Assembly: GCF_028737215.1 (NCBI RefSeq)
Contig: NZ_JAQZAM010000003.1
Span: 310,001-374,000 of the forward strand
Direction: 5' to 3'
Length of the DNA stretch: 64,000 bases
Source: Actinomycetospora chibensis
Lineage (GTDB): Bacteria; Actinomycetota; Actinomycetes; Mycobacteriales; Pseudonocardiaceae
In this document: positions 4,615 to 53,307 of the stretch, piece by piece
Layout: every line of letters begins with the position of its first letter
Position numbering within the stretch: the stretch's first letter is position 1
Position numbers and translations under genes: made by a program
The notes under the pieces: generated by a model
Told to the model about the DNA's origin: nothing
Database searches by the model: none
What the model saw: only the letters and a program-made list of their open reading frames with translations

Positions 4615-4755
4615 CCGCGCGAAGGGCACCATGGGCCGGATAGAGCGGCGAGGGGCGCCCTTCGCCGGAACGTCGCGGGCCGCCGGTTTCCGCGCGAAGG
4701 GCACCGTGAGCCGGATAGAGCGGCGAGGGGCGCCCTTCGCCGGAACGTCGCGGGC
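4615..4755 (+). repeat. tandem pair of 66-bp palindromic elements, 75-bp period
   Basis: Copies 4615-4680 and 4690-4755 are nearly identical. Each starts CCGCGCGAAGGGCACC, carries the inverted arms GCGAAGGGC and GCCCTTCGC, and ends GGAACGTCGCGGGC. The pair fills the cobM-cobK gap and ends 5 nt before the cobK start, so its hairpins would lie over the ribosome entry region. The same arm word recurs inside cobN at 13992. Confidence 0.9.
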
Positions 4756-4760
4756 TGCCG

Positions 4761-43007: not shown

Positions 43008-44522
43008 CTAGCGCGGGGGCGCGCACTCCACCCGGTTGCGGCCCCCGTGCTTGGCGGCGTAGAGCGCGGCGTCGGCGCTGACCATGAGGCCGTCGAGGTC
43101 GTGGGAGGCCTGCGGGAACGAGGCGGTGCCGATCGAGGCCGTCAGGCCCCGCACCGTGCCGCCGCCGAGGGTCGGGGCCACGACCACCTCGCACTCGGCG
43201 ATGCTGCGCCGCAGGCGCTCGGCGGTGCGCACGACCTGCTCGGGGTTCGCCTCGGCGAGCAGCACGATGAACTCCTCGCCCCCGAACCGCCCGACGGCGT
43301 CGTAGGGGCGGACCTCGGCCCGGAGGGTGTCGGCGACGGCGCGCAGGACCGCGTCGCCGACGAGGTGGCCGTGCCGGTCGTTGATCGCCTTGAACGCGTC
43401 GATGTCGACCATGATCACGCCGAGCTCGCCGCCCCGGCGGCGGAGACGGGCGAGCTCGCGGTCGGCCTGGTCGCGCCACGCCGTGGCGTTCGCGAGACCC
43501 GTCTTGGGGTCGGTGCGCGCGGCGCGGGCGAACTGCTGGATCAGGAAGCCGCGGTGCATGCCCATCACGGGAATGAGCAGCACGGGCAGCAGCCACGGCG
43601 TCGTCACGGCGACGACGGCCAGCGCGGCACCGAGCGCGAGCGCGCCGATGCCGATGAGCGTGTCGGTGGGCGACCCGAGCCGCTTCCACCAGGGCGTCCC
43701 GGGCGCGCTGAGGCAGATCATGAAGACGACGAGCCCGTGGTTGACCACCCAGCGGGTGACGCCCGCCGCCACGAGGACGAGGAGCCCGAGCGGGCCTGCG
43801 ACCTTGACCAGGACCCCGCCGGGCACGAGCTCGAGGACCTGCCACGCCGCGACGGAGGCGATGAGCACGGTCGCGGCGGAGTACGTCCACCGGTGCGGCA
43901 CGGGGCGTTGACTGACCCGGAGCCACCAGTACGCGAACGTGACGACCACGAGGGCCAGGGCCAGGCCGATGGGGAGCAGGAGCAGCCCCGCGAAGCTCCA
44001 GACGGACTTCAGCTCGATGTAGGGCTGGCCGTCGGCGACGACCTCTCGCCGTCGTTCGATCCCGCGGGCGGTCTCGACGTGGATGACGAGGCCGAGCACG
44101 AGGAGCGCGAGCGCACGCCAGTCGGCCGGCCCGATCGCCTCCGTCCCGGCGACGCCGAGGGACAGGCCCACGGCGACGAGGTCGACGAGCAGGACGGCGA
44201 CGACGACCCGGCGCGGCGCCTGCCACAGGCTCCAGCGGCGCGGGTCGAGACGACGGAGGTCGACCCGGGGGAGGGCGGCGCGTCCGGGCCCCGTGGCGGC
44301 TGCGGAGGCCGTGACGTCGGACACGTCGACGTCCGGACCGTCCACCGGGCCGTCGGCGGTCGGGCGGGCCGGACGTACCGGCCGCACCCCGTCGCCCTCC
44401 CCGGTCTGAATGGACCCCTCCGTCACAGGACGTACCGAATGTTCGGGCTGTGCTGCTCCGGACGCGGGAGAGAGCGCGGACCCGGGGTCGCCAGGACCCC
44501 TCACAGGTTCACGCGCCGTCAC
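43008..44522 (-). CDS. membrane GGDEF diguanylate cyclase
   Basis: 504 residues. About 100 N-terminal residues are Pro/Asp-rich and disordered; then six to eight transmembrane helices (about 120-330); then a GGDEF domain with VDIDAFKAINDRHGH and GRFGGEEF near residue 412. The active-site variant GGEEF is compatible with cyclic-di-GMP synthesis. No clear RxxD inhibitory site is seen. GTG 44522 is chosen over the frame start at 44639 because AGGAGG stands 9 nt upstream. Confidence 0.88.
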   Translation of the reverse strand: MTAREPVRGPGDPGSALSPASGAAQPEHSVRPVTEGSIQTGEGDGVRPVRPARPTADGPVDGPDVDVSDVTASAAATGPGRAALPRVDLRRLDPRRWSLWQAPRRVVVAVLLVDLVAVGLSLGVAGTEAIGPADWRALALLVLGLVIHVETARGIERRREVVADGQPYIELKSVWSFAGLLLLPIGLALALVVVTFAYWWLRVSQRPVPHRWTYSAATVLIASVAAWQVLELVPGGVLVKVAGPLGLLVLVAAGVTRWVVNHGLVVFMICLSAPGTPWWKRLGSPTDTLIGIGALALGAALAVVAVTTPWLLPVLLIPVMGMHRGFLIQQFARAARTDPKTGLANATAWRDQADRELARLRRRGGELGVIMVDIDAFKAINDRHGHLVGDAVLRAVADTLRAEVRPYDAVGRFGGEEFIVLLAEANPEQVVRTAERLRRSIAECEVVVAPTLGGGTVRGLTASIGTASFPQASHDLDGLMVSADAALYAAKHGGRNRVECAPPR

Positions 44523-44884
44523 GATGAGTGACCTCCTCCGAGCTGACGGAGCGCCGCAGGGGCGGTCTCCGCGTGCGGAACACGGTACCGACGGATTGTG
44601 GATCTCGTCATCCCGCATCACCCGTTGGGCAGTAATCACTCCGATGGTTGACGCCCAGTCGCCGTCTGGTCACGCACAGCACCCTTGGCGAGCATCGAGG
44701 GGCGGATGCGCCGCGATGCACCGCTGGATGTGACAGTCCGGTCGCTCTCCGTCAACGCGGAGAGAGGTCGGTGATCGCACCGACGTCGCGGCCGGCTCAC
44801 CACACAGCGTGTGCGTTGGGCCACGTCCGTGGCGGCGGGCCCGACCCGTCCGACCGACGCCCCAGAGATCCGAAGGGAACCCCC
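44523..44884. other. 362-bp divergent intergenic region before the DSNWH gene
   Basis: Contains the divergent promoters of the GGDEF gene and the DSNWH gene. Somewhat lower GC around 44610-44660. TTGACG at 44647 could be a -35 for the plus strand, and a hairpin CTCTCCG..CGGAGAG lies at 44744-44765. No other coding region is convincing. Confidence 0.45.
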
Positions 44885-45025
44885 GTGGCCGACTCGAACT
44901 GGCACCGCGACTCCAACTGGCACTTCGCCGACTCGAACTGGCACCGGGACTCGAACTGGCACTTCGCGGACTCCAACTGGCACTTCGCCGACTCCAACTG
45001 GCACCGGGACTCGAACTGGCACTAG
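44885..45025 (+). CDS. 46-residue tandem-repeat peptide, seven DSNWH units
   Basis: GTG start, then the whole peptide is seven copies of DSNWH joined by R or FA linkers, ending on His directly before TAG. Seven Trp, seven His, seven Asn and seven Asp in 46 residues; no leader, signal peptide or membrane segment. Ribosome site GAAGGGA six nt before the GTG, and a perfect 41-bp palindrome 23 nt after the stop. The repeat units are near-identical in DNA (GACTCsAACTGGCAC), so they arose by duplication. Regular His/Asp spacing of 6-7 residues suggests metal binding; a RiPP-like precursor or structural repeat is also possible. No maturase gene is adjacent. Not recognised from a known family. Confidence 0.8.
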   Translation: MADSNWHRDSNWHFADSNWHRDSNWHFADSNWHFADSNWHRDSNWH

Positions 45026-45048: not shown

Positions 45049-45089
45049 ACTGGCTGGTATCGCTCGCCAGGCGAGCGATACCAGCCAGT
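45049..45089. terminator. perfect 41-bp palindrome, bidirectional terminator
   Basis: Two 20-nt arms (left ACTGGCTGGTATCGCTCGCC) around a single A. It separates the DSNWH peptide gene and the convergent MFS gene. Confidence 0.9.
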
Positions 45090-45107: not shown

Positions 45108-46322
45108 TCAGGATCCGCGGGCGCGGTTCCAGGCGACGGCACAGAGGAGCGCCACGACGACGCCGAGGGCACCGGCGAGGGCCACGGCCGTCGCCGGCCC
45201 GGTCCGCTCGGCGAGCAGGCCCGCGACGAGCACCCCGACGCCCTGCGTGACGCGCAGGGCGGTCACGGCGAGCCCGAAGGCCTGGCCGCGGTGCGCGTCG
45301 GGCACCGCGGCGACGAAGGCGGCGTTCGCCGGCACCTGGTAGGCGCACGCGAGCCCCGAGACGACCCACAGCGCGATCACCCCGCCCAGCGGCGGATCGA
45401 GCGCGGACGCCACGAGCGGGACGCAGGACAGCACCGCGAGCGGCCCGAGCAGCCGGTCGCGCCGCGCCGGCGGGACGAGGCGGGCGAGCAGGACGATGCC
45501 GAGCGCCGCTCCGAGCGGGTTCGCGGCGAGCAGCAGGCCCACGGTCACCGGCCCGCCGCCCAGCGACGCCGCGTACGGCGCGGCCAGGCCCTCCACGGTC
45601 ACGACGAACGCCGACACGCAGGCGAGCGCGACCAGCGAGCGCAGGCGCCGGTCGCCCGCGACGATCCGGGCGCCGTCGCGCAGGCGGACGCCGGCGTCGT
45701 CGGGGACCCCGCCCGTCGCCCGTTGCTCCGCCACCCCGACCTGCAGGATCAGCGCCGAGACGACGAACGTCGCGGCGTCGGCGAGCAGGGCGACCGGCAC
45801 CCCGACGAGGGCCACCAGCGGCCCGCCGAGCGCGAAGCCGAGGACCTGCCCGCTCTGGTACGTCGTGCCGGACACCGCCGAGGCCACGACGTAGCGCTCC
45901 CCGCTGAGCACGTGGGGCAGGATCGCCGCCCGCGCCGCGGCGAACGGCGCGGCGATCAACTGGCCCGCCACGACCAGCGCGCACAGCACCGCGAACGGCA
46001 TCCCGGGCACGGCCATGAGGACGAGCACCCCGGCGCGCAGGAGATCGCTCACGACCATCGTCAGCCGGCGCGGAGCGCGGTCGGCGATGCCGGAGAGCAG
46101 GGGACCGGCGACGAGGTCGGGCAGGAAGGTCAGGGCGTAGGTCAGCGCGGTCAGCCCCGCCGACCCCGTCTCGGTGAACACGAGGACGGCGAGGGCGACG
46201 CGGGCGACCTGGTCGCCGAGGACCGAGAGCAGCTGGGCCGCCCAGAGGGCCCGGAACTGGGCGTCGGCGAAGACGTCCCCGAACCGCGCACCGCCCGTGT
46301 TCGGACGGTGATCGTCGGTCAC
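45108..46322 (-). CDS. MFS exporter
   Basis: 404 residues with about twelve hydrophobic helices. The stretch between helices 2 and 3 (GPLLSGIADRAPRRLTMVVSD in pieces) is the MFS motif A region with its D-x-x-x-R-R charge pattern. Resembles the EntS/macrolide-efflux (MefA-like) group that exports drugs or siderophores. Substrate unknown. Convergent with the DSNWH gene across the palindrome, divergent from DUF3145. Confidence 0.88.
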   Translation of the reverse strand: MTDDHRPNTGGARFGDVFADAQFRALWAAQLLSVLGDQVARVALAVLVFTETGSAGLTALTYALTFLPDLVAGPLLSGIADRAPRRLTMVVSDLLRAGVLVLMAVPGMPFAVLCALVVAGQLIAAPFAAARAAILPHVLSGERYVVASAVSGTTYQSGQVLGFALGGPLVALVGVPVALLADAATFVVSALILQVGVAEQRATGGVPDDAGVRLRDGARIVAGDRRLRSLVALACVSAFVVTVEGLAAPYAASLGGGPVTVGLLLAANPLGAALGIVLLARLVPPARRDRLLGPLAVLSCVPLVASALDPPLGGVIALWVVSGLACAYQVPANAAFVAAVPDAHRGQAFGLAVTALRVTQGVGVLVAGLLAERTGPATAVALAGALGVVVALLCAVAWNRARGS

Positions 46323-53165: not shown

Positions 53166-53307
53166 GCGCGGGGTCGCGCAGCGAGGGGGTCCCTGGGTGC
53201 GTGGGACGCAGTGAAGGTGACCCTCGCTCCACCCGCAAGCGCGCGGGATCGCGCAGCGAGGGCGTCCCTGGGGGCGCTGAACGCAGTCGGGGCGACCCTC
53301 GCTCCAC
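53166..53307 (+). repeat. tandem pair of 67-bp palindromic elements, 75-bp period
   Basis: Copies 53166-53232 and 53241-53307 share the arms AGCGAGGG and CCCTCGCT and the middle GTCCCTGGG. The period of 75 bp and the 8-bp spacer match the pair at 4615, although the sequence differs. Between pirin and convergent cspA. Confidence 0.85.

Follow-up and report, generated by a model that had tools for sequence, protein, structure and literature searches.

A 46-residue peptide made of DSNWH repeats in Actinomycetospora chibensis comes from a bacterial gene that is both real and conserved. The peptide is one of a large class of tiny tryptophan (Trp) peptides encoded next to membrane enzymes that make or break c-di-GMP. 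The conserved genes of this class are under selection at the protein level and linked to the c-di-GMP enzyme, and the peptides co-vary with the membrane domain of that enzyme. We lean slightly towards a reading in which the Trp peptide, possibly exported by an MFS transporter, acts as a signal sensed by this membrane domain.

Within the window, the 64,000-nt stretch of the A. chibensis genome that was analysed, the peptide gene runs on the plus strand from a GTG at 44885 to a TAG ending at 45025 (141 nt; product MADSNWHRDSNWHFADSNWHRDSNWHFADSNWHFADSNWHRDSNWH), with R or FA linking the seven DSNWH units. A Shine-Dalgarno-like GAAGGGA (44872..44878, plus strand) lies six nucleotides 5' of the GTG. 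The reading frame is open 5' as far as a TTG at 44648, and the GTG was chosen because of its ribosome site and because relatives share the same start. A perfect inverted repeat of 41 nt (45049..45089; 20-nt arms at 45049-45068 and 45070-45089, 1-nt centre) begins 23 nt past the stop; no T-run was found after it, and it is likely a bidirectional terminator between the convergent peptide and MFS genes. No same-strand gene lies directly 3' of the peptide gene. Translation thus confirmed the ORF of seven units given in the preliminary description, and the GAAGGGA motif and the 41-bp palindrome lie where it had placed them; its view of a genuine one-gene unit agrees with the gene having its own ribosome site and terminator-like repeat. 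A purine-rich site also lies ahead of each of the 46 peptide ORFs compared, whose starts were picked by that criterion, and strong hairpins follow the stop in 12 of the 12 relatives listed, a count made without a shuffle control. A known RNA element was rejected, since tRNAs alone reached the gathering score; the window palindrome gave matches to mraW and to three microRNA models, each scoring far under its gathering threshold.

On one side of the peptide, a diguanylate cyclase with a membrane domain and a GGDEF domain is encoded on the minus strand (43008..44282). Its ORF is open to a GTG at 44639, so that the true start is uncertain and the 5' end near 44282 approximate. The GGDEF domain is recognised by Pfam (E 8.7e-41) and, because the GGEEF motif and the RxxD I-site (RPYDAVGRFGGEEF) are intact, the enzyme can be expected to make c-di-GMP. 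The N-terminal membrane domain (43509..44282, minus strand), our proposed peptide sensor, is predicted to contain about seven helices in a low-confidence structure model (ten-residue blocks of about 39-74 pLDDT in the membrane part). Pfam matched no family to this domain in the window cyclase; one relative gave a sub-threshold MASE9 match (E 0.092). The protein thus resembles membrane-anchored diguanylate cyclases of the MASE-like type in domain order and in its intact GGEEF and I-site, but differs from them in lacking a Pfam family for the membrane domain and in having a peptide gene as conserved neighbour. On the other side, convergent to the peptide gene and on the same strand as the cyclase, lies an MFS transporter gene (45108..46322, minus strand; MFS_1, with a weaker MFS_3 match), which encodes a candidate exporter. 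Between cyclase and peptide, a conserved non-coding block (44616..44679; ATCACCC ... GGTTGACGCCCAGTCGCCGTCTGGTCAC) was found in the 14 Actinomycetospora rows of 15 aligned and is likely a control region shared by both genes. Elsewhere in the window, we observed two tandem duplications (4615-4760 and 53166-53307) with a 75-bp unit, both rich in GCGAGGG/CGCCC motifs, which may belong to a repeat family dispersed in the genus.

The preliminary description had proposed to search related genomes for the repeat and to compare unit number and neighbours. This search returned a conserved gene, present in 17 of 18 Actinomycetospora genomes (14 in a first scan, and G002, G014 and G015 found separately), with unit numbers that differ among orthologues; the sole exception is a genome that is 59% complete (G013). 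The same cyclase adjoins the peptide in 16/16 loci where the contig continues, and the same MFS gene lies on its other side in 17/17 (window included in both counts). The GGDEF and MFS neighbours that had been pointed out earlier are therefore conserved partners, and they are the best clue to function. Units vary by species (DSNWH, DSNWS, DSHWN, DSNWV, DSNWA), terminal DAHWR-like units are frequent, and an 84%-complete genome (G007) has a degenerate peptide copy at a contig end. Among 15 Pseudonocardiaceae fused-array peptides compared, eight have mixed units; unit differences amounted to 77 synonymous and 132 non-synonymous, and of 145 unit pairs with identical protein 67 differ in DNA. This mixing speaks against a simple picture.

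Using the membrane domain of the window cyclase as a probe, we found related cyclases in other genera with other Trp repeats upstream on the opposite strand (SNNW, GNEWF, STDWTF, PTDWAR, RPSEW). At further loci, in many other Actinomycetia, rows of separate ORFs of 6-7 codons, every one preceded by a ribosome site, occupy the same slot, such as MRDNNWT x8 (L320), MRNRAW x8 (L327) and MREKIW x2 (L331), and many such loci have the order MFS, peptides (opposite strand), cyclase. Of 32 cyclase loci chosen by homology (L300-L331), 12 contain an array by a strict rule and 13 have no visible one; in the other seven, inspection by eye showed one or two copies or a degenerate one. Of 50 loci, 29 have an MFS gene next to the cyclase on the same strand, and none was found in the other 21, for some of which the retrieved stretch was short. 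In these 50 loci, a set that excludes the window's own region, the array criterion was satisfied on the divergent strand in 28 (12/32 chosen by cyclase and 16/18 chosen by mini-ORF) and on the other strand in one, which resembles the antisense image of the array in L308; dinucleotide shuffles of the corresponding regions gave 0/1000. In one of the loci (L304, genome G283), the RPSEWR (SEW) units do not share the frame of the likely ATG, which opens a conserved MIKRSES-type start, and the peptide is possibly frameshifted.

A mini-ORF pattern was also run on 296 genomes of the class and 200 of the family. Among the class-wide matches listed, 24 places have at least two separate matches close together, and a membrane-GGDEF gene lies beside all 24. 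The largest arrays counted were 16 copies of MRNHSWT, 15 of MRSRDW or MSRDW, and 13 of MRDTTWS or MRDTTWR. For single-copy matches, a cyclase was found beside 19 of 20 regions examined, a minority of all single matches that was picked by resemblance and partly by known proximity. No membrane-GGDEF gene lies beside the mini-ORF matches L410 and L423. In six loci of one family (L392, L394, L395, L396, L398 and L408) the cyclase is followed by a lactonase-like beta-propeller gene (PF10282 by Pfam in L392 and L395, the rest by similar start), which is either an additional cassette gene of this lineage or a chance neighbour.

When named genomes were scanned with a pattern, Geodermatophilus and Blastococcus yielded short ORFs, MNTQRGSKWGRGSKWGRGSKWGRGSKWGC among them, and in Geodermatophilaceae analogous arrays, e.g. 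(RGSKWG)n, precede a gene for a membrane GAF-GGDEF-EAL protein, with domains assigned by Pfam in two named members. Of 33 regions examined, drawn from one family (f16) taken as Geodermatophilaceae, 31 contain the peptide ORF (L269 and L275 do not), and in all 31 a GAF-GGDEF-EAL match on the same strand begins 146-327 nt further downstream. The arrays have species-specific units (GSKWG, GAKWN, TNKWT, VTKWG, GHKWS and others). A strong ribosome site precedes each of these ORFs, the starts being picked by that site, and a strong hairpin lies 3' of the stop in the examples listed. No relative of the window MFS was found in the 31 regions (about 10 kb each) or in two g38 loci. As to the enzymes, a GG[DE]EF motif near the expected place was found in 0/31 (of four stretches listed at this place, two read EGEQF and one EREQF) and the EAL-type motif ETLVRW is kept in 31/31, so that their output may be c-di-GMP degradation. 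A profile comparison of the Actinomycetospora and Geodermatophilaceae membrane domains gave a probability of 62% (E 7e-5), a value in which membrane bias is possible. In L243-L274 we also observed a conserved non-coding element (GCGCGGTCCGTAC...ACGCTCTGCCCCCGCGC) about 30-110 nt 5' of the peptide start. Rfam gave no match to it in the three of these loci that were searched, and it could serve as a promoter or form a structured leader. Another record with a Geodermatophilaceae peptide locus (L126, SPQJ01000015.1) is titled 'UNVERIFIED_ORG: Bacillus sp. AZ43' and looks mislabelled.

Comparison of the copies shows that selection acts on the amino-acid sequence of the peptide. In the window, the seven units form 21 pairs, of which 12 have different DNA sequences. 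The preliminary description had limited third-position variation to TCG/TCC for Ser, which is correct inside the units, but the linkers also vary synonymously (CGC/CGG and GCC/GCG). Copies within one peptide are protein-identical in 30 of 31 Geodermatophilaceae peptides while their synonymous sites mostly differ, and pairwise codon differences between units were 188 synonymous versus 4 non-synonymous, which we read as a sign and not as a statistical test since unit pairs are not independent events. Mini-ORF copies in 24 loci showed 358 codon differences that are synonymous and 65 that are not. L408 and L317, two loci with copies of unequal length, account for 48 of the latter, and L318, L401 and L404 entered with one ORF only. 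Each mini-ORF keeps its ribosome site and stop, and the spacers diverge to varying degrees. In some arrays (e.g. L261, L398, L399 and L400) the copies are identical in DNA too. The conservation of amino acids suggested earlier for the window is in line with these mainly synonymous differences, which point to selection on the protein sequence. What recurs across the family is Trp only, plus mostly a preceding Arg. A metal-binding array or another role based on His and Asn, as the preliminary description had considered, was rejected, since neither residue is conserved (DSNWS, DSNWV, GSEWH, RGSKWG, MRNRAW).

Peptide divergence tracked the membrane domain and not the catalytic domain of the adjacent enzyme in two separate sets of peptide-enzyme pairs. 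For 63 peptide-cyclase pairs, the distance between peptides correlated with that between membrane domains when the GGDEF domain was controlled for (partial r 0.450; 0/2000 permutations, a statistic that here and below leaves shared ancestry in place), and the reverse, GGDEF domain given membrane domain, gave -0.026. With near-duplicates removed (33 sequences) the partial r was 0.376 (0/2000), and it fell to 0.121 (89/2000) with the 23 most divergent cyclases only. Where the MFS match was long enough (33 loci), the membrane domain given MFS gave 0.285 (1/2000) and MFS given the membrane domain 0.004, while MFS given the GGDEF domain tracked the peptide too (0.401, 0/2000). Geodermatophilaceae, treated separately, gave a membrane-domain partial r of 0.403 (0/2000) and a reverse value of -0.053, at mean identities of 47% for the membrane domain and 86% for GGDEF-EAL. 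Different peptides also coexist in single genomes: five (G548, G578, G598, G616 and G658) have an MRGNSWD array and an MRDxxW array, both accompanied by a cyclase and an MFS gene of their own, and G036 has three peptide-cyclase pairs with three different peptides.

The signalling cassette that we propose would comprise the Trp peptide, the MFS transporter and the membrane c-di-GMP enzyme. The peptide would be expressed as many identical or near-identical copies, from a fused repeat (Actinomycetospora, Geodermatophilaceae) or from a row of 6-7-codon ORFs. The N-terminal membrane domain of the neighbouring diguanylate cyclase, or in Geodermatophilaceae that of the GAF-GGDEF-EAL protein, would bind and sense the peptide or R-x-x-x-W units cleaved from it, and sensing would change cellular c-di-GMP. 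Where present, the MFS transporter probably exports the peptide, which would then be a species- and paralogue-specific pheromone. More tentatively, at a little under even chances, the products may be exported leaderless Trp hexa- and heptapeptides, encoded by identical genes of 21-24 bp that stand in rows of at least 16 at the longest, or in the fused form of the window, and read by membrane domains of diguanylate cyclases and phosphodiesterases, each peptide having its cognate enzyme and several insulated channels being able to coexist in one cell. In favour of signalling are the synteny within the genus, the same slot elsewhere, the mini-ORFs with ribosome sites of their own, the shuffle control, the selection on the peptide, the intact GGEEF and I-site in the window, the membrane-GGDEF gene beside all of the listed arrays, the co-variation and the paralogue-specific peptides. 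Several observations count against it. No leader or signal peptide was visible by inspection, the mini-ORF units beginning at Met and the fused arrays having at most a short polar N-terminus, and the fused arrays would need cleavage by a putative protease. The absence of the MFS from all 31 Geodermatophilaceae regions weakens the export step, and the 21 of 50 loci in which no same-strand MFS gene was found, in some because of a short stretch, also count against it. Further points against are the homology-chosen loci without an array (13/32), the weaker co-variation among the most divergent cyclases, the out-of-frame units of L304, the two matches without a membrane-GGDEF gene and the mixed Pseudonocardiaceae peptides.

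Some of these same observations would suit a peptide that remains intracellular and acts as a small regulatory subunit on the cytoplasmic face or the membrane domain of the cyclase, the MFS being a co-inherited neighbour with another job. Products of 6-7 residues could act directly. Such a subunit would also fit the lack of a visible signal peptide, the Geodermatophilaceae regions without an MFS relative and the partial correlations, in which the peptide follows the membrane domain once the MFS is accounted for but not the MFS once the membrane domain is. We nevertheless consider it rather unlikely, since the MFS recurs on the same strand beside the cyclase in 29/50 loci and throughout Actinomycetospora, and different peptides for each paralogue in one cell need insulation, with which secreted signals fit as well. 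Still less probable is a RiPP precursor, for example one with cross-linked Trp, whose product may or may not be a signal. RiPPs commonly have multi-copy cores, and the biarylitide precursor is characterised by a conserved Tyr of the MxYxH type. In the units read here Trp recurs and Tyr is rare, and core residues vary widely, Trp and Arg excepted. In 128 loci (about 883 kb), some of them without a peptide and with flanks of 1-7 kb, many of only 1-3 kb, no P450 heme signature (FxGxHxCxG-like regular expression) was found in ORFs of at least 250 aa whose third positions are GC-rich. A CxxxCxxC motif occurs in such ORFs of three loci only, with no conserved radical-SAM candidate; the ORF in L276 presumably encodes a cofactor enzyme. 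By the P450 and Tyr tests the peptide is not a RiPP of the biarylitide type. What speaks for a RiPP, besides the multiple copies, is size: biarylitide precursors have about five residues (PMC13417212 and PMC12951456), and like them the 6-7-codon mini-ORFs are among the shortest protein genes and end near an aromatic residue. They differ in having no nearby P450 signature, up to 16 copies counted per row and a linkage to diguanylate cyclases.

The recurrence of Trp and Arg, which could stack on guanine, would also suit a c-di-GMP sponge that buffers the messenger, and designed peptides that sequester c-di-GMP exist. Co-variation with the membrane rather than the catalytic domain is not expected of a sponge, however, nor should paralogues each keep a different peptide, and we give this idea very little weight. 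We regard as equally improbable a role for the repeats at the DNA or RNA level alone, as binding sites or in translation-dependent attenuation, or a neutral origin by slippage. The repeats are tandem in DNA, a conserved non-coding block lies upstream and some arrays have DNA-identical copies, but copy differences are mainly synonymous, the mini-ORFs retain ribosome site and stop while their spacers diverge, and in the window the peptide gene has its own terminator-like repeat with no same-strand gene directly after it.

The lack of a known family noted in the preliminary description held against NCBIfam (no match for four peptide versions), PHROGs (none for two versions) and, above chance level, Pfam (none for four of five versions; the fifth gave one chance-level match, E 0.057). 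No published description of these peptides was found in a search that covered mainly open-access papers, and the class of tiny Trp peptides beside c-di-GMP enzymes is apparently undescribed. A viral origin was rejected, as the R-linked pattern is absent from viral contigs. Most Streptomyces matches (80 loci listed of 107 stretches) proved to be one long conserved protein and not peptides. L198 and L187 were rejected as chance-looking repeats with no cyclase or MFS relative in the retrieved surroundings, and L194 was set aside by eye as a chance-like repeat.

Gram-positive peptide pheromones (Agr, Phr/Rap, Rgg/SHP) are short species-specific peptides with dedicated neighbour genes and membrane or cytoplasmic receptors. 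The cassette resembles them in its short, species-specific peptide, its dedicated neighbours and the several candidate receptor-peptide pairs per cell; co-variation of the peptide with the sensor domain of the candidate receptor, another pheromone-type feature, was found too, more weakly among the most divergent pairs. It differs from them in its rows of 6-7-codon ORFs or fused repeats without a visible leader or export signal, in having an MFS transporter and not an ABC transporter or AgrB, and in its candidate receptor, a c-di-GMP enzyme. The cassette would therefore work like a peptide pheromone system, yet we cannot file it under a known one, given the lack of a visible leader, the rows of tiny ORFs and a c-di-GMP enzyme as candidate receptor. 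We know of no external signal for most c-di-GMP enzymes. A gene-encoded ligand that lies next to its candidate receptor in many genera, and that comes in natural specificity variants, would open the question of the signal to direct tests. Genes of 6-7 codons are likely missed by annotation pipelines, and a widespread gene class may have been overlooked. If the more tentative reading, of exported leaderless peptides, is true, these peptides and their partners would constitute a previously unseen actinobacterial signalling system.
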